Of a stretch of DNA of 64,000 bases, positions 3,801 to 61,488 are shown piece by piece. Location of the stretch: contig CM055897.1 of the NCBI GenBank assembly GCA_029582155.1, forward strand, positions 91,959,829 to 92,023,828, in the 5' to 3' direction. The notes under the pieces are model-generated. The model made no database searches. It saw only the letters and a list, made by a program, of their open reading frames with translations, and was not told the origin of the DNA. Position 1 is the first letter of the stretch, and each line of letters starts with the position of its first letter. A program made the position numbers and the translations under genes. This stretch comes from Panopea generosa (taxonomy: Eukaryota > Mollusca > Bivalvia > Adapedonta > Hiatellidae).

Positions 3801-6800
3801 TACTATTCATTCATTTTAAAATTCATAAATCTCACCACAACATGATCCTTAATCAGCGTCTGAAATTAAAATAAAATTATGAAAATCATTTACATGTATG
3901 TATCTCAATGTGATTGGTATACGTGTTGATTAAATCACTCCAACAATATTTTCAACGTTTGTTTGCTGCAGGTATCTCAATGGCATACTGTATAACCTTG
4001 TAAATAAGCACATACTTGAATATAAACGTACGCCAAAACTAAGTGCATAGGACCTTACCCTCATTCTCTATGTGATAATAACCTCATTTCAAATTCTTCC
4101 TTTAATTTTGTCTTATAATTAGGCACATACATTTTTATATCAATGATATATAACCCCTTTGTTTGAAATCTTATATTAATTTTAATCATTCATCTAAAAC
4201 TGGAATCATTATTACTTTACAAGGTCATTATTCGTAATTGTCAGTCGCTACAACTGTTACCATTGAGATCCATCTGAGCAGACTATACACTGTTAGTTTT
4301 TATAATAAAACTGCGATATGTCAGTAATCCAATTCAGCAATTTCATTATAATAAGTTATTTGTACATCCCTGATGTTATCTGATCAATCAGTCATTATTA
4401 GAGTTTAGCGACCTCCCAGTGTGAAACTCCAAACACAGCATTTGTTTACATGCAGGCTGATAGCTACTGTTTGATGACTATTCATTGACTGTCACATGTT
4501 TACCTTATGTGCATAAAACCAGTCAGTGGATGAAAAAAACACATAGTGGATAAACCCGTGAAAATGATTTTGGAAGAACCCGAATTTTAACACTTTCACC
4601 AAATAAATTTTTTTTCACCCTTTTATTTTTTTATAGAGTATAAGAGTATAAGGTTACATGATCATTTTATTATGCATAGTACTGCATATTTTATGTTTCA
4701 ATCTTTTAAATTATTCATTAACTATGTGTTTTCTTTGGTTGTAACATCCAAAGAACAAGTACGCATGGGGCTTATGTTTAAGCATATATCAAATAGAGGC
4801 GCATAGCTTAGGGTTTATGTATAAGTCCTTATCGAAAGTAGGTGCATAAAAGTGTCCCTAAAATGAACTTAAACACATATGCTTAATTACTAGATTTTAC
4901 AGCATGCACGTGTATATACTAGATCAGTCATTCCAACAATATCTCCCAACAGAATTTGTCTACTATCTGGTATCTTGCTTTTAAGCTAGATTTAATCTTA
5001 TTCTGTATTCTGTCCGATTAGCATGCAGATTCTCATGTAAATTCTACTTTGCATATTGAGCATATTAACTTGTTGAATTAACAGTTCATTTCATCTAGAC
5101 CCTTGAATATTTTATTGCCAGATGAACAGTTTGATAGTATTTATATGAATATACATCCACCCTTAAAATATTTTAAACCTTAACAAATAGTCATCTATAT
5201 GGATGCACACAAATCTATTATATAAAATAAACCTCCCCAGCTATGTATCTTTCATACAACTATGCAATCTGGTCTATGAAGAAAATGGCCATTATTTGTG
5301 TGACCAGAATCTTTTGCCACGTTTGTTTCATAATGATAGTCTTAGTGCAAACATTGGCAATCAAGAATACCGGTACATAAAACTATTCCACTATTTTTTC
5401 TCCCAAATATTTGACACAAGATTTGCTGCAGTTGACTTATTTATACAAAACAAGGTAGCAATTACAAGTACTATCAACTTCTGTACCTCAACTGTATTCC
5501 AGTATATTGTTTCCTTCTTCTTCCTCGTCTCATCGTTCACAACTAGGCAAGCTGGGACAGACTTTATCAGCACAACATCACGACTCTGTGCGTCCTTGTG
5601 GAACTTTATACCTTCAACATATAAAGTGTCAAATAAACTTATATTTAGGATTAAAAAGCATGTTATGTATCTAAATTTCTAGTGTACATATTTATAATAA
5701 AATTGCAAGTACTGCACGACGTCTTAAACCCAAGAGTATCTCTCAATGAATAAACCCCTTTGTTATACATTTACAACCTAAAATTCCACAAGACTCAAGT
5801 GATTTCTTTATTTCTTACATCTCATCCCATCTAAATGCTTCTGTCAAATGTTTTGTTTTGAAAATCAATAGAAACTAATGTAATTATTTAAACATCTTCA
5901 AATTTACATTTACAAACTGAAGTAGGTTCAATTTTGGTTAGTTTAGCATGAATCCATCCAGAACATGATATAAGACTTAAAGTAAACAATAACTTAGATG
6001 TATTTCTCTGTGTATATAGTACCTATAACTTGGATCTATATATCTGTGTACATCAGTACCTATAACTTGGATCTATATATCTGTGTACATCAGTACCTTT
6101 AACTTGGATCTTTATATCTGTGTACATCAGTACCTATAAACTGGATGTATATCTCTATGTACATTAGTACCTATAACATGGATGTATTTCTCTATGTACA
6201 TTAGTACCTATAACTTTGATGTATTTCTGTGTGTACGTTAGTACTCATAACTTAGATCTATATCTCTGTGTACATTAGTACCTATCAATTGGATAACATG
6301 GATGTGTTTCTCTGTGTACATATTACCTATAACATGGATATATATCTCTGTGTACATCAGTACCTATAACGTGGCCCTATATCTCTGTGTACATTAGTAC
6401 CTATAACTTTGGTGTATTTCTGTGTGTACATTAGTTCTTTTAACTTGGATCTATATCTCTGTGTACATTAGTACCTATAAATTGGATAACTTATATGTAT
6501 TTCTCTGTGTACATAGTACCTGTATCTCTATGTACATTAGTTCCTATAACATGGATCTATATTTCTGGTTACATTAGTACCTTTCACTTGGACGTTTATC
6601 TCTGTGTTCGTTAGTACCTATAACATGGATCTATATCTCTGTGTACATCAAAACCTGTATCTCTGTGTACATTAGTACCTATAACTTGGATGTATTTCTC
6701 TGTGTACATAGTACCTATAACATAGATCTATATCTCCGTGTATATAGTACCTGTATCTCTGTGTACATTAGTACCTATAACACAGATCTATATCTCTGTG

Positions 6801-9800
6801 TACATTAGTACCTGTATCTCTGTGTACATAAGTACCTATAACATTGATCTTTATCTCTGTATGCATTAGTACCTATAACATGGATCTATATCTGTGTACA
6901 TTAGGACCTGTATCTCTGTGTACATAGTAGTGATAGTACCTATAACATGGATCTATATCTCCGTGTACAATAGAACCTATAACATGGATCTACATCTCTG
7001 CATACATTTGTACCTATAATTTTGGTGTATTTCTCTGTGTGTACAATAGTACCTATAACATGGATCTATATCTCTGCATATATTAGTACCTATAACTTTG
7101 GTGTATTTCTGTGTGTGAGCAATAGTACCTATAACATGGATCTATATCTCTGTGTACATAAGTACCTATATCTCTGTGTACATTAGTATGTTCAACATGG
7201 ATCTATATCTCTGTATACATAAGTACCTATATCTCTGTGTACATTAGTACATATAACTTGGATCTATATCTGTGTACATTAGTACCTATACATTGGATGT
7301 ATTTCTCTGTGTACATTTGTACCTATAAATTGGATGCATTTCTCTGTGTACATAGTACCTATAACGTAGATCTATATCTCCGTGTATATAGTACCTGAAT
7401 CTCTGTGTACATTAGTACCTATAACACGGATCTGTATCTCTGTGTACATTAGTACCTGTATCTCTGTGTACATAAGTACCCATAACATTGATCTTTATCT
7501 CTGTATGCATTAGTACCTATAACATAGATCTATATCTCTGTGTAAATTAGTACCTGTATCTCTGTGTACATAGTACCTATAACATGGATCAATATCTCCG
7601 TGTACAATAGTACCTATAACACATTAGTACCTATAATTTTGGTGTATTTCTCTGTGTGTACAATAGTACCTATAACATGGATCTATATCTCTGCATACAT
7701 TAGTACCTATAACTTTGGTGTATTTCTGTGTGTGAGCAATAGTACCTATAACATGGATCTATATCTCTGTGTACATTAGTACCTATAAATTGGATAACTT
7801 GAATGTATTTATCTGTGTACATAGTACCTATAACATGGAACTATATCTCTGTGTACATAAGTACCTATATCTCTGTGTACATTAGTATGTTCAACATGGA
7901 TCTATATCTCTGTATATATAAGTACCTATATCTCTGTGTACATTAGTATGTTCAACATGGATCTATATCTCTGTAAACATTAGTACATATAACTTGGATC
8001 TATATCTGTGTACATTAGTACCTATAAATTGGATGTATTTCTCTGTGTACATTAGTACCTATAAATTGGATGTATTTCTCTGTGTACATTAGTACCTATA
8101 ACATCGATGTATTTATGTGTGTACGTAAGTACCTATAACTTGGATGTATTTCTCATTGTACATTAGTACCTATAACTTGGATCTATATCTTTGTGTACAT
8201 TAGTACCTATAAATTAGAAGTATATCTCTGTGTACATAAGTACTTATACATTGGATCTATATCTCTGTGTACATTAGTACCTATAAATTGGATGTATATA
8301 TCTGTGTACATTAGAACCTTTAACATGGATGTATTTCTCTGTGTACAATAGTACCTATAACTTGGATATATTTCTCTATATACATTTGTACCTATAACTT
8401 GGATCTATATATCTCTGTGTACATTAGTACCTTTAAATTGGATGTATTTTCTGTGTACATTAGTACCTATAACTTGGATGTATATCTCTGTGTGCATTAG
8501 TAGCTATAAATTGGGATGTATATCTCTGTGTACATTAGTACCTATAAATTGGATGTATATCTTTGTGTATATTTATACCTATAACTTGGATGTATTTCTC
8601 TGTGTACATTAGTACCTATAACTTGGATCTATATCTCTGTGTACATGAGAACCTATAACTTGGATGTATTTCTGTGTGTTCATTCGTACCTATTACTTGG
8701 ATGTATTTCTCTGTGTACATTAGTACCTATAACTTGGATGTACTTCTCAGTGTACATTAGTTCCTTTATCTCTGTGTACATTAGTACATATATCTCTGTT
8801 AACATTAGTACCTTTATCTCTGTGTACATTAGTATCTATAACTTGAATCTATATCTCTGTGTACATTAGTACCTATAACTTGGATGTATCTTTGTGTACA
8901 TTAGTACCTATATATATGTGAACATTAGTACATATATATATATCTGTGTACATTAGTACCTATAACATGGATGTATTTCTCTGTGAACAATAGTACCTAT
9001 AACTTGGATGTATTTCTCTTTATACATGTGTACCTATAACTTGGATCTATATCTCTGTGTACATTACTACCTATAAATTGGATGTATTTTGCCGTGTACA
9101 TTAGTACCTATAACTTGGATGTATTTCGCTGTGTACATTAGTACCTATAACTTGGATGTATATCTCTGTGTGCATTAGTAGCTATAAATTGGGATGTATA
9201 TCTCTGTGTACGTTAGTACCTATAAATTGGATGTATATCTCTGTGTAAATTTTTACCTATAACTTGGATGTATTTCTCGGTGTACATTAGTACCTATAAC
9301 TTGGATCTATATCTCTGTGTACATTAGAACCTATAACTTGGATGTATTTCCGTGTGTTCATTCGTACCTATTACTTGGATGTATTTCACTGTGTACGTTA
9401 GTACCTATAAATTGGATGTATATCTCTGTGTAAATTTTTACCTATAACTTGGATGTATTTCTCGGTGTACATTAGTACCTATAACTTGGATCTATATCTC
9501 TCTGTACATTAGAACCTATAACTTGGATGTATTTCCGTGTGTTCATTCGTACCTATTACTTGGATGTATTTCTCTGTGTACATTAGTACCTATAACTTGG
9601 ATGTATTTCTCGGTGTACATTAGTACCTTTATCTCTGTGTACATTAGTACATATATCTCTGTGTACATTAGTACCTATATCTCTGTGTACATTAGTATCT
9701 ATAACTTGAATCTATATCTCTGTGTACATTAGTACCTATAACTTGGATGTATCTTTGTGTACATTAGTACCTTTATATATGTGTACATTAGTACATATAT

Positions 9801-12800
9801 ATATCTGTGTACATTAGTACCTATAACTTGGATGTATTTTTATGTACATTAGTACCTATTCTGCTGAACTCCTGTGTGTATGCCACCATCACTCTCACTT
9901 CATCCTCTGTAAGTGTCAACAGCCTGGGTGGGTCAACAACAAACTTACACAGCCTTCCTCCATCTACATCATTGTCCACATAGGCCCCTGAAACAAATCA
10001 ACTAGCAGTCAGGGAAACATTCTTACGTAACAACAAATTAAGATCTCCCTGACAAATTGGTCTAATGCACTGTCTTGAGATCACATACCTCTGACCACTG
10101 AGGTCGTGGGTTTGAGCCCATGTCGGTCTAAACAATTTGACTGCTTCTTGCACAAGTATGTTTTTACTTCTCAGATTAATTCCGAGGTCTTCTTCCATCA
10201 ATAAAACTATATTTCAAAATAAGTATATAACTTTTTGATGCATTAAAAATCACATTTAATAAACCTCACTCAATTGTTTTTAAAAGCACTAACTTTGCCT
10301 CTACTGTGATTCCATACATGTGTAGTGTTAAACTACATAGTTGGGTTTTCTGTAAACAGTTTTTAATAAAACAGTTTAAATCATAAGCCTTAAACAGACA
10401 CATTTTACATGTATGTACAAATGTAACTAGTGTTTTGTATCACATTGATTATAGTGTGTAGATTATACATGTACACTACTATATTAATGTAAAGTGTAGA
10501 TTATACATGTACACTACTATATCCATGTAAAGTGTAGATTATACATATACTTTACTATATCAATGTAAAGTGTATATATCCATGTAAAGTGTAAATTATA
10601 CATGTACACTACTATATCCATGTAAAGTGTTGATTATACATGTACACTTCTATATCCATGTAAAGTGTAGATTATACATGTACACTATTATATCCATGTA
10701 AAGTGTAGACTATACATGTACACTATTATATCCATGTAAAGTGTAGATTATACATGTACACTACTATATCCATGTAAAGAGTAGATTATACATGTACACT
10801 ACTATATCCATGTAAAGTGTAGATTATACATGTACACTATTATATTCATGTAAAGTGTAGATTATACATGAACACTACTATATCCATGTAAAGATTACCT
10901 TCTGTAAGCATTTCCAACCGTATCCTCTCATGTGCAGCATGTTGGTCTATGACAGCCAGTAAGTCTGCATCTGGGAAGTAAATAAATGTCATCTACCAGA
11001 CATACATGTAAATTAATGTGTTAGTATGAGTTAAGCTTCACAAGATCATTATCATCCAGTAATAAGTCAATGTAGTTAATGAACCATGACAACAAAAGAT
11101 ATAAGTCTACTGTCTAAATATTTTCCATGTTTTCAAGTCCCAATGTTTTACTATGCAGGTTAACTCCAAGGAGCTAACTTATGTCTCAATCAAGATTTAC
11201 CTCCCTTGTAAATATTTACCTGTAGTGGGTTAGCTCCAAGGAGCCAACTAATGTCCCATTCAAGATTTACCTCCCTTGTAAATGTTAACCTGTAGAAGGT
11301 TAACTCCATGGAGCCAATTTATGTTCCATTCAAGATTTACCTCCCTGAAAATTTGAACCTGTGGAAGGTTAACTTCAAGGAGCAACTAATATCCCATTCA
11401 AGACTTACCTCCCTTGTAAATGTTAACCTGCAGCGGGTTAACTCCAAGGAACTAACTTATGTCTCAATCAAGATTTACCTCCGTTGTAAATATTTACCTG
11501 TAGCGTGCTAACTCCTATGGCCAACTAATGTCCCATTCAAGATTTACCTCCCTTGTAAATGTTAACCTGTAGTGGGTTAACTCCAAGGAGCCAATTTATG
11601 TCCCATTCAAGGTTTACCTCCCTTGTAAATGTTGACCAGTAGAAGGTTAACTTTAAGGAGCAACTAATGTCCCATTCAAGATTTAACCTCCCTTGTAAAT
11701 GCTAACCTGTAGCGGATTAACTCCAAGGAGCCAACTAATGTCCCATTTAAGGTTTACCTCCCTTGTAAATGTTATCCTGTGGAAGGTTAACTTCAAGGAG
11801 CCAAATAATGTTCTATTCAAGATTTACCTCCCTTGTAAATGTTAACCTGTAGCTGGTTAACTCCAAGGAGCAACAAATGTCCCATTCAAGATTTACCTCC
11901 CTTGTAAATGTTAACCTATAGCGGATTAACTCCAATGAGCCGACTAATGTCCCATTCAAGATTTACCTCCCTTGTAAATGTTAACCTATAGCGGATTAAC
12001 TCCAAGGAGCCAACTAATGTCCCAGTCAAGATTTACCTCCCTTGTTAATGTAAACCTGTAGCGGATTAGCTCCAGGGAGCCAATTTATGTCCCATTCAAC
12101 ATTTACCTCCCTGAAAATGTTAACCTGTGGAAGGTTAACTTCAAGGAGCAACTGATGTCTTATTCAAGATTTACCTCCCTTGTAAATGTTAATCTCCAAG
12201 GAGCCAACTTAGTCTCAGTCAGTCAGTCAAGATTTACTATGCTGGTTAAAAAAGGGATCATTTCAGTTCAATCTGCCTGGTACTTAAATATAAATATAAC
12301 TAATGTATACACAATATTGTAAAGTTATCTTATAATAACTGAGACATCAATTCAAAATCATCACTTAAATGTTAGCCACTTTGTGATATATTGTATAGTT
12401 ACAGAATTTTCAAGAATGGCATTTAAAATAACAAATGTTACATACCTCCATTAGCTATGTGTTTATCTTTACTGATGAGACATGCAATAAACTTGTTATC
12501 AAGCTGCCCAACAACCTGCAAAAATATATCAAACTTAATACTAGTACATTCTTTTGTGGATGAATGTCCAATTTGCAGCACATTTATTTTAGTGAGTGGG
12601 TATATTTGATTTTCGTGTATAACTTCATAATTAATAACCAATACATGCATTAACATTCTCAACATACCATGCCAAGTTTACATACAAATTTAAGAAAAAA
12701 AAAGAATTGGAATTGCCCTTCTCATCTAATTATCTGCAATACTTTTACAAGTAATCTGTATACCGACAGAAATAAATAACTTCCAAATAACATTTCAATC

Positions 12801-39879: not shown

Positions 39880-40807
39880 ACAAAAAATTCCCACGTATGC
39901 GCGGGTATTGAGTCCACCTATTGTCGACATTGATAAGTTGATATAGGCCATTTCGCATAAGATTAAATTTATCCACCATGGTATACCTCTAATCTTCAGG
40001 TAATCAAACATCGACTATTTTTTTTAATTCTCAATTCGAATTGATCATTCATGGATAATCTAGATTATTCATTCATGCTTATACGTGTACACATGCATTT
40101 GAAATCATGTTTATAAATATGACCAGCTGACAGTGTAAAGATCGTATTTCAAGTTAGTCATATCGTATTATCTTCTATGTGGATAGTATTATCAATATTG
40201 AAAACCCACATTGCTGGATTATAAACAACTTACTTTACTTTGAGGAACATTCTGGATCTAATGGAAATATATGAAATTGTTTTAGGTAGATTTTTAATAT
40301 AATACATTTATTAGAATTTATATGTTGATTTTATACTAATTAAAGAAAGTTTTCCACAATGATAATTATTTTTAATATCGACATCAATTTTAGAGGCTCG
40401 GTCGTTACTGTAATCTGTAAACACACGACATTTGTATGATCGGAATACTTCGAAAACCACTTATAGCGTATCACATGACTATTTCAGTTAAATGTTGACT
40501 TTGTAGTAGTGGTATGTAAACATATATATCTAAATAAATTATTACTTACCAGATCTCAGGGGAAAATACAGTATTGATTCCTCTCTGGATTTATACGTCT
40601 GTCATAGAAACGAAGGTGATTCGTTTAGAGTTGTGGATATCTCAGAACGTGGATCGTATATTATATCCAGCTTATATCCAGTATATCATCTAGTATTTAG
40701 CAAAGATAATTTAGTGTAGGAAACAATAGTTTTCAAACTGGAATTCTGATTTTTCACAACTTGTAATATTTCAGAAATAGCTTTGGAAGCAGCTCGACTA
40801 TTACCAG
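39880..40807. other. upstream region of ZC2HC1C
   Basis: AT-rich, with no recognisable core promoter element. The last bases before the ATG (ctattaccag) could be a splice acceptor, in which case a non-coding first exon lies upstream, but I cannot place it. Confidence 0.4.
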
Positions 40808-42049
40808 ATGAGTAACCTCGCATTTGACAGCAAAACAGCCTCGTACGGAGGATTATCGAGAATACCACGCCCATTTGTGCACCCCAGTCAACCCGAACAG
40901 TTTAACAACTATCGACGTGACGCAGGCTATCTACGCGACGCAGGCTATCAACGTGACGAAGGCTATCAACGTGACGCAGGTTATCGACAAAGCATTATGC
41001 AGAACGGTAACCAGCAAAGAAAGCCATCAAGGCTGGACAAGATGCAAACAAATTATCAAAATAAATTGTTAAAAGAAAAAGAGGAGAGGATAATTCACAT
41101 GTACGAAGAGAACCAGCAGCGAGCACTGCAGAGAGTCAACCAGAAAAAAGGCATGGTAAGAGACTTTTTCAACGAGAGAAGGGCACTTAGTTCAGGTAGT
41201 GAAAAAGGAGTGAATAACAATTCCCCTTCAATGGAGCACATGTACAAACAGAAAAAGAATGAGTATCAGCAGAGTCAGGCATCCTTTGGATACAAAGGAC
41301 AGCATTATACTAGTCAAGGGCTTGCCGAGAAAATTGAAAAACAAAGTTTACAAAATGGACAGCATCAGCCAACCAGTAAAACAAACAGTGGTCTGTATCA
41401 GCAATCAAATAGACAAAATGGTGGACAATATCAAACCTCAAATAGATACGGACAGCACATGCAACCAGGTAAAAACAGTGCTGGACGTGACAGATCAAAT
41501 CTTCTAGCGCCTATACAAAAACCTGGTACGCATCCAAACAATCCGTTTCCGAGTAAAGCACAAATTGTTCGACCGAGAACATACAAAGACTCTTTACAGA
41601 ACAAGGAAAATTATTCTAATGGCGGGCCGATTCCCAGAAGTGCTCCAACGGGCAATTTTGCAATAGACTTTGATGCTCTTAGTGACGACACACCGCCGCC
41701 TAATCCAAAACAGTTACTAGCTTTACAACAGAAACGAAAGTTGTTGCAAAGTCAGAGAAGTAACAAAAGTACCGTGTCAAACCAAAGTAAGTTAAGCGAT
41801 TTTCAGAAATGGCAAATAGATCAGGACAAGAACAGAGAAAACCGTCTTCAGAAACACCGCACTGCCAATGGCCGTCCTTCTGCAGAAGATGAAGGTTATG
41901 CGGACGAAGACGATATGGATACGGAAGAGAGTGAGGTAGGATTGCAGGACGATATGAAAAGAAAGCAGCAAGAGCTTTTGGAACAGATAGAGGCACAGCA
42001 GAGAGAATTGAATAATCTGAGGAAAGAGAGGGCTAGAGAAGAGATAGAG
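40808..42049 (+). CDS. ZC2HC1C: ZC2HC1C exon with hexapeptide repeat
   Basis: The start MSNLAFDSKTASYGGLSRIP is the first Met of a long open frame. Residues about 38-58 are four near-copies of RDAGYQ (an 18-nt unit at about 40915-40985), specific to this protein as far as I know. The exon ends GAGATAGAG|GTAAGT. If the donor is not used, the frame adds about ten hydrophobic residues (SLFGLIILSV) and stops at 42085. Confidence 0.9.
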
Positions 42050-45000
42050 GTAAGTTTGTTTGGTTTAATTATACTTAGTGTTTAAACTTGTCAATGAAAA
42101 TTCATCCTCGGCATATGGACATTAGATATTTTGTTTTTGTATGTAATATGTGCTTTAACATTCAAATATGTTTTATAAGTTTTAACTGGAGATGCGATAA
42201 ATATGCCTGTGTAATGCTATACTGGCTCGATATATCCTGTAAGAGTTGTATATATATATATATATTTATTTGTACTTTAATTCAAAAATCTTCCTCGGGG
42301 AAGTTATCATATTACACAAGTTCAATTTATTTCGCTCAATATTTACCTTGCCGAAAATTAAATATTGAGTGAATAAATATGAACTTGTATATTTATTTGT
42401 TTTACTTGGGATCAAAATGATATAAAACATGACTGGTTACATTTTGAAATCTCATCGTTAGCAATATCAAAACACACTCAGTTTTGAATTCCTTGCCGAA
42501 GTGGTAAAAACCACATGTGTATCACATGTAATCAAATTAACCTTAAAATGTTTGTATTTTGGGTCCTACTGTCTGCTTTTATGCTTATTTGACGAATTAT
42601 ATGAATTATCCAGTGAATCGTCATTGGTAATTGAAATAATATAAATTTAAAAAATGGTATTTTCACTGACTTTGATCATAAATTCAAATAAGCGCTGTTG
42701 GTTTCAGTAATATGACATAATATTGCCGATTGTGACCATTCCATTTAAGTGCTCACCCGGGGCCTTGCCGCTTGTGGCCATACCATGTCAGTGCTCACTC
42801 GGGGCCTTGCCGCTTGTGTCCATACCATTTCAGTGCTCACTAGGGGCCTTGCCGCTTGTGACCATACCATTCCAGTGCTCACTCGGTGAAAGTCACTTGA
42901 ATCAACAGTTGTTTTCTGTATAGTTATAAACTTGTTTTAGTTTATGCATAACGAACTGGATATATGTTTCTCTTTATCAAAAGCGACAAGACGAAATGGT
43001 GATATATTTGATTATTGATGTTTCTTTTTTTCTTTTTCTCTATTTGCATGTATACTTTGACAACTTACTAAATATATTCTAAATTTTCCACTATCTCATA
43101 CGTGTCAACTTATAATCTATCAATATCGATTTTAGCGTACACAGAGAAAGTTAATGCGAAATAAGTAACTGTAAAGAATGGGGAATATAATCAAGACGTG
43201 AAATGAGCGTGAAAAACGTATAAATCAGTTATGCATAATCCAGCAAAATTTATGTTAAATATGGATATGCATGTGAATATATATATAATACTGTTGTTGC
43301 TCGATTTAATATATTTATTTCATGTAAACTATCAGAAATGTCAAGCTTATAAACAGTATTCCAGAAATGTTTATAAAACAAAACTCGTTATAAAATGGAT
43401 AAACCGTTTTAATGATCTAACTTGTTGTCAGCCCTTTTCTTCTTTACAAACTAGGTATTTTGGATATACTTTGAAATTTTGGACTTTTTCTATAATGTCG
43501 TATTTATCCGTTTGGGCCATTTGCAAGTTTTTTATTTGAATTGATTGTATGTAACCACACAGTTCGTTTATACTAATATAGTTTAGCTCTGTTGCGAAGA
43601 AAACTCAAAGCTTATATGAGTCCACTTCCTTGGTAGAACCAGTACTGAGTGTTGTTTTTTGGAGAAGCATTGTGTCGGACTGGGGATCGAACCCGCAATC
43701 TCTGGCGCAAGCGGTTAGCACTATACAATACGCTACCTGCCCGCTTTATGACTGTCAAATTACATTTAATAATTAAATATTAATTTTGATTGTGGGTTAT
43801 GGAAACCATTATGAAAGATATACTAATTTTACATATAATTTCTAATATCCTTTTTTTTTCTTTCCCATAGTTGTTTTTTATTGTGTTATCTAATTGTTAC
43901 ATTGTTAACTACCTGGTGCAGGAGCACGTTTTGTATTTTAAACGAGGATCGTTCCTAAAGTTCATATATTTCAGAACTTTTTTCACAGTTAAAATTAAAC
44001 TGGTCATGATGCTTTTTTATGTAATAAAACATACTATTTTGTCAAATTATATGGAACTTGACAGATTTATACTATAAGTTGACGTTTGGCAGTTCAACTA
44101 TACTCTAAGTTGACGTTTGGCAATTCAACTATACTATAAACAGTGTCAGCTTATTCATGGCGATATAAATGTTCTGACCGAAGATATATGTATATTTCAA
44201 TAAAACATTTGAAAATTAAACTAAAATATTTAACGTGACGAAATATATTTAACAATAGCAATTAATGAAATTTATGAACTTTTGAAACAACCTTCTTGAA
44301 AAGTACATTTTTTTCGACACACTGTTTATTGAAGAATATAAGCCTAAATGTTTTCAACACGTGTTTTATTTGATTCATATTGTTTTGTTTCTAAGATAAT
44401 ACTCAATTAATAGAAATGCATTATAACTTATAGCAGTTTTACATCTGTTTTGGGGAAAACTGCATCATTTTATATCTACGATGCGTTTTTAATATTGTTA
44501 ATACACAAGTTGGTTTGTAATATTTGTATCTAAGATTCGTGCCTAATATTGTTACCAATTTAATGATTGTATTTAGAATAATTTAAACTTGGTGGCAGTT
44601 TTACTGCTATTATGAGGAAAACCGTTATTAATATATTATTCCTTCATCTGGAGCTTAGTCAATAGCAATAACTAAGTATGTATTTTAATACTCACCATAA
44701 TCAATAACAGTGATAGTTCTCCTCAAGAAATATGATACTTTAAATATGCATTTAAATTTAATCGCTTGACAATTTAAGCCCTGTGCAATTAGTCATACAC
44801 TCCTATGTTTTACAATAATTTGTTTTTATTACTGTTTGTCTATAGGAAGCTAAAGAAATGGAGCGAAGGAAGAAACACGAAGAAGATAGAAAACGGAAAA
44901 TACAAGAAGAAGAGAGGCGTAGACGGAAAATAGAAGAGGAAGAACGAGTTAAACAAGAGTGGGAGGAAGAGAAAGCTAGAAAGGTCAACGAGGAAAAACA

Positions 45001-53710: not shown

Positions 53711-56284
53711 CTAGAAACCTGCCTCAAACGCGGCTTTTACTATGCTTGGTTTGGATGCATCTTCGCTTGTCGTGAAATCAACAAATGACTCAACTACTGC
53801 GTGCAAAGGGATAACGTTGTTAACTGGGTTATAGGATTTGAAAAAGGCAGTATCCAAGGCTACATCCCCGTGACCATAGGCTTTAGAAGCTATCAGAAAT
53901 TCTTCCTCTGACATTAATTTGTTCTTGTCGGTATCGATGACGTCAAAGATTTTGTCAAAACATTGAGCCATCTTCGCATTAAATTTCTCCTTGTCAGCTT
54001 TAAACTCATCGTTTAAAGATTCGACAAATTCTGATTCTGAAATGTCGCCACTTTTTCCTCGGAAAATGTAATCCTGCCACCATTGTTCCATGTCATCGAT
54101 AACCTGTTTTCGTTTTTCGGCATCCAAATGGTGTAATTGAGAAAACTTTTTCCTGAAAAAAAAATTTTGTTCATTTGACAATATATTCTATAGTGCATTT
54201 GGCTATTTATAGATATCAATACAAAACTTTTGTATGATGGTGAACATTTATTCATGATTAGTAAACAGACACGCCATAAAATTAATTATTACATAAAACA
54301 CTCGTTGTGAAATGTATACTAGAGCTCTATGGGTTTTTTGTTGGGTGACACGAAATATTTAATAACGGATTTCTATAACATAAGCATCACTATTTTAGTG
54401 AATTTGTTTAAGCATATGCGTAGGAGTTCGAGTTGGGGAGTTGACCAATGTCCAGATTGCACCCAAACACACACAGTTCTTAAAAATAAACTTTGATTTA
54501 AGAAAATTACAAAAATACAAAACTAAGATGTATTCGTCTCAAATCGTTTGACCTATTCAACCAACAAAGTGGCGAACCGTAGTTTAGAATTGGCGAAACA
54601 ATAGCTTCAAATAAATATTATAAGGTAAATTAATATAAATTTGCGAATATGTATTAATAATACATTCTTGCCATTAATTCATGATGTTTTTCCGTGTATG
54701 TATTTGTGTATATTGATGTACAAACGTGTTGTTAAGCAACCAGCTTAAATTTAAAAAAAATGATATTTTAATCTTCCTTTTCTGACTTGATTAAATGCGT
54801 CAACGTATCACGGGCGCACTTCTTTCAGTGTTTATATCAGTACAAGTTGTATTATTTATACAAGTATCCCCCATTGCAGTTTCATGAGCATGGTGTTTAA
54901 TATTGTAACAGGAACTTAAAACAGGGAATTCTGCCTGATTATATATGTTCTCTGTTTCTAGAAACAGTAGGAGTATATACACCTTACAAATTACGAAATA
55001 TGTTGTTTTTAACACAAGAACACATTTTTTTTTCAAATTCGTTTATTCCGTCATGTCTATCTATCTGGAATACACTTCCCGAGTATAATCGTAACTCAGA
55101 GACTTTATCTGTTTTTAAAACACATATAACAAACACCTTAAGTTTGATACTTTTTTAAATTCTATAACATTTCATGCAAGGTGCGACGGATGTGGTAATG
55201 AAAAAGAAGATGCTGAGCCCTACTTTATGCATTGTCCTATATATATACTGATGAACGACTTCGTCTCTATTGTTCTACCCGCCGTTTTCATCCCTTAAGA
55301 ACACGAGTGCTTTTATTTAGAAAGAGTATCTCGGCATCAGATATCAATTTTATGCAGCCTTTCAATGCACCGGAACGATATTACGACAGCATTTAAAGCA
55401 ACACATCCACGTTTGAACTTTTAAAAAAAAAATAATTGAGTTATGAGCACATTTCCCATACAAACATACGATCAATTAGCTGTATATGAGCATATAAACA
55501 CAATCTGGAACAAAATGATGCCCAAATTATAATACGTGACTAACACTTTATAAAACAAGCGTGTAACTCACCCGAGTCAAAAAAAATTGTCAAAATGACT
55601 TTCAAGGCAGGTAAAGTACACTACGCACTAAAACGTGAAGTTTTTTAATACGACTCGCATAATTCAATTTGAAGCCAAGTTGGAATCCTCGGCAATTTAA
55701 AAATAATTTATAAAGCGTTTGTCACGCTTTATAATTTGGACATCTTTTTTTATAATTCTAAAGCGTTCTGGATAGTGTTTGTTAGCACATATACAGCTCA
55801 CTGACCATATATTTATGTATGGGAAATGTGCTCACAACTCAATTGAAAAACTTTTTTAAAAAGTTTAAACGTGGATGTGTTGCTTTAAAAACAGGTTATG
55901 TATTTTCTCTCTTTTTCTTACCTCCTACATTAATCTTTTTTTTTCTTTTTATTTATATCTTAATTTATTTAATTGTTCGTTTACATCCTATTGAATGTTA
56001 TAATTGTCATCTTGATTCTAATGTTATTTGTATATTGAAAGGGGAGGACTGTAACTACTATTTCTAGGGCTTGTGGCCCAACCCGGTTGCTATGTGGATT
56101 ATGCAATAAAATATGTTTTAAACCTTATATTTTAACAAAAAATGATAATGTCCGCAACAGTCCAGTTGGAAAATAAATAGAAGTAGCCGAAACAACGAGT
56201 TAACTATTATAAAAAATCATTTAATACTTTACAAAAAGTGTAAAACAAGATTGAATTTGTAGAAAAATTGCTTAAGAAATACCC

Positions 56285-60029: not shown

Positions 60030-61488
60030 CTAGACAACTTCTTCAAACGCGGCTTTTATTATGCAAGGTTTAGATTTATCTTCGCTTGTTGTGAAATCAA
60101 CCCAAGATTCAACTATTGCTTGCAATGGAATAACGTTGTTGTCTGGGTTATAGACCTTGAAAAGACCAGTAGCCCAGGCTTCATCCCCGTGACCATAGGC
60201 TTTGAAAGCAATCAGAAATTCTTCCTTTGATATTAATTTGTTCTTGCTGGTATCGACGACGTCAAATATTTTGCCAAAACATTCAGTCATCTCCGCATTA
60301 AACTTCTCCTTGTCAGCTTTAAACTCCTTGTTTAAAGCTTCGACAAATTCTGATTCGGAAAGATCGCCACTTTTCCCTCGGAAAATGTAATCCTGCCACC
60401 ATTGCTCCATGTTTTCGAGTACCTGTTTCCGTTTATCGGCGTCAAAATTGTGTGATTCGGAAAACATTTTTCTGGAAAAAAAATGTTCTTATATGTTTTT
60501 ATTTTTAATAAGCAATTTGAAAATATATTTCTTTTGGCCATTTATTAAGATCGACATAAAATAAAATATGGCAATAGTGAACGTGTTTTCATAATTGATG
60601 AATAAACAAACATTTCATTAAAAGAGTTATTGTTTAAGAAATTATCGTTGCAATCGTTTTATCAAGTTATTATAGCTGAAGCTGTTTTAAATAAATTTTA
60701 AAGATAATAACTAAACCCTTTCTCCACGCCTGTTAACCTCCAAAGCCATCGAATAAATGTAATGCAATAAAATGTTCAGTAGGATTTCTGGTGATGCCCC
60801 GGTCGCAAGAAATATTCCCAACAAAGGTGAGTCGTATTCATATTTTCCGTATTGTTCTTGTGTTTGAGAAAGAAAATAAAGGTGAAGACGACTCAACTTT
60901 GTGACCGTACCATCACCTGGAAACCCTATCGAACACATTTTATTGCAGCACGTGTATGTGATGGTTTGGGAGATTATCAGGCGTGTTTTCTAAATAGTAC
61001 CAAAATATTAGTTAATTTACTGAATGTGCACCTTAAAATAATAGGCGTATGCCCCCCCCCCCCCCCCCCCCCCCCCACACACACACACAACCCCTTAATG
61101 TGCATGCTTTGTGGAGCATCATATAATTTTACTGAGGAGATCCCCTTTCCCACACCACACTAAATGGCAAAAATATTGGAGAAAATTAAATACACATAAT
61201 GCATAATTTGGTATTTAAGATTTAAAAATTATCCAGGGAGGTCCATTTATGCCCTCTTGAGAGAGAGGAAACATCCCCTCTAGCATTCTCACCACGTCGT
61301 GTGTAGTGCATGAGGTACTAGATATTAAACACGGTTTACACACATGCATTCGCACACACGCACGCACAAACACACACACATCATTACTTCGATTCATCTG
61401 CATCCTCTTGGGAGAGTGTGCCGTCACGGTTCACATCAAGGGCTTTGTACCATAGCTTCCACTTCGACAACAAAAATTCGTTTGCCAT
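60030..61488 (-). CDS. sarcoplasmic calcium-binding protein, copy B
   Basis: Coding exons are 61388-61488 and 60030-60471, exactly the lengths of copy A (101 and 442 nt), giving 180 residues. It starts MANEFLLSKWKLWYKALD. EF-hand I at 18-29 (DVNRDGTLSQED) is closer to consensus than in copy A. EF-hand III is DTSKNKLISKEE. Hands II and IV are degenerate as in copy A. The exon junction again falls within a Lys codon (AA|GTAATG, TTTTCCAG|A). Much of the coding sequence is identical between copies, while the introns have diverged in length, so selection has kept both. A non-coding first exon probably ends at 63091. Confidence 0.93.
61052..61090. repeat. compound poly(C)-(CA)n tract
   Basis: About 25 C then CA repeats, in the intron of copy B; a like tract lies in the copy A intron at 56282-56319 but at a different relative position. 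Confidence 0.95.

Follow-up and report, generated by a model that had tools for sequence, protein, structure and literature searches.

We analysed a 64,000-bp window of the Panopea generosa genome (assembly GCA_029582155.1, contig CM055897.1; positions are counted within the window), in which an intron of a minus-strand MLH3 gene carries a minisatellite that opens with the real splice donor and repeats the donor signal about ninetyfold. The features of the junction are as follows, with a slash marking each splice site and +1 the first intron base.

10899-10970, minus strand: preceding MLH3 exon, carrying the DQHAAHERI motif and DQHAAHERIRLE; 5' end set by eye; donor AAG/GTAATCTT, with +1 at 10898.
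9856-9987, minus strand: MLH3 coding exon of 132 nt, 3' end AGA ATA G, called exon 12 in an earlier note on this DNA.
9843-9859, minus strand: 17-mer containing the true donor, intron +1 at 9855, context TAG/GTACTAAT.
5985-9859, minus strand: minisatellite with a 37-bp unit, GTACTAATGTACACAGAGATATACATCCAAGTTATAG, and 24-bp variants; 107 recognised units.
9821-9823, minus strand: TAG in frame with the exon, ending its extension into the array; the last base lies directly before the second donor copy (decoy 2, +1 at 9820).
5487-5611, minus strand: next MLH3 exon, starting GIKFHKDAQSRD; acceptor TTGAAG/GTATAAAG.

Judged by their translation, these exons are those of MLH3. The joined reading of the three matched the Pfam family MutL_C (PF08676, 8.2e-11), and the best matches in PDB, which were weak (E 0.022), were chains named MLH3, presumably the yeast proteins. 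Together with these two matches we counted towards the identification the DQHA...E residues, which we take to be the MutL C-terminal endonuclease motif. Scanned apart, neither exon flanking the junction matched a Pfam family. The splice from 9855 to 5611 is supported by the reading frame, by MutL_C and by the weak PDB alignment, which crosses the junction at EFSRI/GIKFHK.

The exon ends ATAG/GTACTAATGTACA, and the array extends from exon position -4 (the ATAG) to about 5985. Homology to the unit starts at -4, so that the true donor at 9855 belongs to unit 1, which bears out the earlier proposal that the minisatellite copies the donor of this exon. A wrap-around alignment reached into the exon as far as 9893, which was taken as overshoot, and the start was put at -4. 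Tandem Repeats Finder reported 96 copies of a 37-bp unit at 5989-9628 (72% matches); beyond these, rows of 24 bp and other shorter periods continued to 9859. The first unit is 35 bp long and aligns to the consensus with three mismatches and two single-base gaps; 64 of the 106 unit spacings were 37 bp and 16 were 24 bp. In donor phase, GT was kept in 91 of the 107 units and AG/GT in 82, counts for which units were recognised by a match to a core (at most 5 mismatches in 16) that begins with the donor GT.

The 17-mer ATAGGTACTAATGTACA had 32 exact occurrences in the window, every one on the minus strand and the true donor among them, and was absent from 100 shuffles. The string had been described as present in a large share of units; at 32 copies against 107 units, exact copies make up about 30%. 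Across the whole 1.47-Gb genome, 32 of 32 exact matches fell in this array, as did all 55 matches to a two-unit query (the search skips very common words and scores the best candidates only). A dispersed satellite or transposon-borne repeat was therefore rejected, as the unit is found at one locus only. Within the array, blocks of several units share 95-98% identity, for example 428 nt at 95.8% with a lag of 863, which shows later segmental duplication inside the MLH3 array.

We asked how well the copied donors would pair with U1 small nuclear RNA (snRNA), computing pairing energies against the U1 5' end of the same genome. The P. generosa U1 genes start ATACTTACCTG, with which the match opened in 11 of 12 loci, the twelfth lying on the unscanned strand; the U1 matches are clustered on contig C2 at about 1.137-1.177 Mb, with a spacing of about 2 kb. 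At -5.5 kcal/mol, the true donor was the weakest of the five MLH3 donors scored (-5.5 to -6.6), a comparison that leaves two further visible donors unscored and some MLH3 exons unlocated. Of 279 GTs in the array, 87 paired at -5.5 kcal/mol or better, and 19 of these were stronger than the true donor, whereas on the opposite strand 1 of 381 reached that level. The density of such sites was 22.5 per kb in the array, compared with 2.2-4.5 in four other stretches of MLH3 intron; 30 mononucleotide shuffles gave a mean of 12.5 and a maximum of 19. The nearest decoy is an exact copy of the 17-mer at +35 from the true donor. Scoring the array donors was a check set beforehand, and it upholds the idea of many decoys; the figure of over a hundred is too high, the count being nearer 82-91.

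The exon ends at codon phase 1, and its extension into the array reads GTNVHKNTSKL and then TAG. As this stop precedes decoy 2, every later donor would add a premature stop ahead of the C-terminal exons; transcripts with a premature stop are either decayed or yield truncated protein. Since MLH3 retains the array, decoy use is probably low. Recursive splicing at AG/GT was not favoured, the unit's TCCAAGTTATAG being without a pyrimidine tract by eye.

We investigated how often arrays span splice junctions elsewhere in this genome, using 120 exon matches (80 myosin head and 40 kinesin; 240 junctions). Eighty of 81 myosin head matches were examined (30, 20, 20 and 10 loci), omitting C2:64839594-64839911, whose neighbour in locus L091 was scored. 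The kinesin sample was 40 of 126 matches, namely the first 41 less the fifth, whose score equalled that of the fourth. Exon ends were taken as match ends unless the sequence was read directly, and both misses and overruns occur; the kinesin flanks extend no further than 220 nt, and some neighbouring loci overlap. Arrays spanned the donor of 6 of the 120 exons, four myosin and two kinesin, with units reaching into the exon.

L036, myosin: SLVDEESKFPK/GTAAGTGC; 41 bp, 5.2 copies; 31 nt into the exon.
L054, myosin: TLKAEQ/GTAAGC; 34 bp; 28 nt into the exon.
L078, myosin: FVQLQFS, CAAG/GTAAAG; 29 bp; 23 nt into the exon.
L108, myosin: LLQPDKRQYK, AACA/GTGAGT; 48 bp, 3.9 copies; 33 nt into the exon.
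L126, kinesin: DLLDLK, AAAAGG/GTTAGT; 43 bp; 21 nt into the exon.
L142, kinesin: VNISPADYNMDETVISL, CAC/GTGAGT; 108 bp, with copies whose exon part has diverged; 53 nt into the exon.

Five of the six had at least one decoy that matched the true donor in U1 pairing; L142 had none, its best being 0.2 kcal/mol weaker. Including MLH3, a stop precedes decoy 2 in six of seven donor arrays, the exception being L036, where decoy 2 lies at +41 and the stop ends at +45. We would not read these stops as a sign of selection, as extensions of such length often contain them.

Acceptors were spanned in 4 of the 120 exons, all myosin, with exonic lengths obtained by reading.

L041: TTTCAG/ATGAATTCC; about 9 exon nt.
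L053: CTGCAG/GTTTGCTAT; about 9 exon nt.
L084: TTTCAG/GTGA; about 4 exon nt; 39 bp, 11 copies.
L086: TTTTAG/GTATAGTCTTGGTGACCAT; about 31 exon nt; 47 bp.

Upstream of myosin exons, these arrays repeat the acceptor together with the opening bases of the exon, a mirror image of the MLH3 case. We left out, as not spanning a junction, arrays that start 34-62 nt past the match end (L135, L056, L069) and arrays that stop at the pyrimidine tract (L050, L113). In total, 10 of 240 junctions were spanned (4.2%, 95% interval 2.0-7.5%), or roughly one exon edge in twenty-five, a rate that rests on two gene families. Arrays covered 6.8% of flanking bases, whereas none lay wholly inside any of the 120 matches and trimmed interiors held 23 bp in total, although the matches were picked for conservation, which favours array-free interiors. 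Even so, coding sequence keeps arrays out, and splice junctions hardly do.

The MLH3 case has parallels both within this genome and in published work. In intron 18 of human ABCA7, the first GT of a 25-bp variable number tandem repeat is the donor of exon 18, and a donor one unit downstream is also used (PMC5954066). As there, the MLH3 array starts at the intron, the GT of its first unit is the canonical donor, and later units on the same strand equal it in pairing. Use of the downstream unit in ABCA7 gives an out-of-frame transcript (PMC5954066). The ABCA7 repeat differs in having 23.7 units in the human reference and a C-rich region, and in that its length variation and splicing have been measured (PMC5954066); the MLH3 array has 107 recognised units and is known here from the sequence of one assembly. 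In human IFI6 (G1P3), a minisatellite also offers several donors to one exon, and two downstream units serve as donors and make isoforms (PMC4526556). MLH3 does not belong to that type, in which later units give translatable isoforms: with the in-frame TAG any later unit would add a stop, though a truncated product may arise. The original paper on the IFI6/G1P3 (6-16) minisatellite is reportedly Turri 1995.

Two further systems resemble MLH3 in part. In human segmental duplications, variable internal tandem repeats at exon-intron boundaries altered intron structure, with 27 intron modifications after manual check (PMC2812944). Those repeats concern recent human paralogues with new introns or cryptic sites, while in MLH3 the donor that is copied already existed and its exon is fixed. 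Intron gain by tandem genomic duplication multiplies splice signals as in MLH3, there creating a new intron (PMC4974935) and here lengthening an existing one. In the parts of the literature our search reached, which took in few subscription journals, we found no description of one genome in which arrays copy splice junctions this often, nor of an acceptor-side counterpart.

We propose that the minisatellite was seeded by a tandem duplication that crossed the exon-donor junction or had one end at it, and that it then grew by slippage or unequal exchange. The copy adjoining the exon would be held in place by coding sequence and remain the working donor, most likely chosen because exon definition marks it, and the roughly 90 downstream copies would be near-neutral decoys, spliced out with the intron. 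We consider this account as a whole likely. While the anatomy of the array, the number of decoys, their pairing, the stop and the recurrence at other exons are direct observations, we infer the duplication step at MLH3, the use of its first donor and the neutrality of the rest. Birth across a junction is a demonstrated route in this genome, because the units at six other donors hold 21-53 nt of exon together with the donor. Several points weigh against the account. MLH3 shares four exonic bases (ATAG), few enough for chance once the AG is discounted, and donor use at MLH3 is read from the sequence. Array edges gather at junctions to a modest degree, so most of this excess may be due to random placement combined with tolerance: of 28 edges, 12 lay in the junction bin, whose 70 nt make up a quarter of the span, compared with 16 in the next three bins together (binomial p 0.029, Poisson p 0.009), and these bins were chosen afterwards, two of the 12 edges only abut acceptors and the outermost kinesin bin was cut short.

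A separate array lies in the preceding intron.

10456-10893, minus strand: 38-bp array beginning at +6 of the preceding MLH3 intron, reaching the donor without copying it.

That the 37-bp and 38-bp arrays share an origin was not supported: a base-shuffle null gave p of about 0.01 forward and 0.035 reverse, and a dinucleotide null over both orientations gave p = 0.19.

The earlier note left open whether the array grew out of the donor region or overwrote it. Had it been overwritten, an array arising within the intron would have spread by conversion or expansion to the coding limit, a compatible unit taking the place of the donor's earlier flank. Beyond ATAG no further exon sequence is visible in the MLH3 unit, and because only these bases are shared, MLH3 alone cannot decide between overwriting and an origin at the donor. 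The 38-bp array, for which no significant relationship to the first was seen, arrives within six bases of a donor without copying it; of the eight arrays in these introns, two come within 6 nt of a donor, for which random placement gives P = 0.0002 (a post hoc figure resting on approximate exon bounds); and the acceptor array L084 likewise shares only about four exonic bases. Against this stand the six donors with exon-containing units, by which junction birth does occur here, and we prefer growth from the donor, regarding overwriting as unlikely. It is also conceivable that junctions act as hot spots where tandem duplications begin, for instance because of breaks linked to transcription or of short repeats near splice sites. 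The concentration of edges in the junction bin is what this would predict; however, the excess is modest, includes the two arrays that merely abut acceptors, would be equally expected if arrays stop at coding sequence, and comes from one genome and two gene families plus MLH3. We think it quite unlikely.

The decoys themselves might be active, through variable donor use coupled to nonsense-mediated decay that tunes MLH3, or by holding U1 small nuclear ribonucleoprotein along the intron. The 87 sites at or above the pairing of the true donor, 19 of them stronger, fit this, as does the true donor being the weakest of those scored, and ABCA7 transcripts retaining one repeat unit have been observed (PMC5954066). 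In 64 full units, however, the AG/GTA core was conserved at about 0.94 and the other positions at about 0.92 (three two-state positions left out), so neither upkeep nor purging of decoys is visible, a weak test given that units were picked by a donor-containing core. Taken with the stop ahead of each decoy, this agrees with copies that are nearly neutral. Similar arrays also occur in unrelated genes. Neither AATAAA nor ATTAAA occurs in the array, and the whole intron has one AATAAA, which leaves little premature polyadenylation for U1 to protect against; protection of this kind was rejected. Active decoys thus seem very unlikely, and we return to the reading in which a junction duplication founded the array and its first copy kept working.

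The rest of the window holds features of separate interest. Tandem arrays occupy about 20% of positions 1-64000 (12.5-13.6 kb depending on threshold), against 4.8-6.2% in 30 myosin loci.

1042-1884, plus-strand unit: 44-bp array whose unit contains GAGGTAAGG, resembling a strong donor consensus, antisense to MLH3.
40909-40985: probable coding minisatellite, an 18-bp repeat in a long plus-strand open frame (40781-42082) that translates to RDAGYQ-type repeats.
53714-54187 and 60033-60488, minus strand: probable duplicates, a pair of similar open frames (each about 155 aa) that presumably resemble EF-hand calcium-binding proteins.

Extrapolating from these exons, we lean slightly towards the view that tandem duplication across exon-intron junctions is common in this genome, with several percent of all donors and acceptors at the edges of arrays that copy splice site and exon, amounting to thousands of cases, and that splicing dependably uses the copy nearest the exon, which is the first one at donors and the last one at acceptors. 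Choice among near-identical splice sites is usually studied with engineered duplications, and such arrays would offer natural tests in several genes, where a donor has equal copies after it or an acceptor has copies before it. At acceptor arrays, a rule of first transcribed, first used predicts the upstream acceptor, whereas exon definition predicts the exon-proximal one. The arrays would also bear on annotation, as short reads map poorly within them, on how introns grow, and on the extent to which MLH3, a gene known in other organisms for its part in meiosis, tolerates decoy splice sites.

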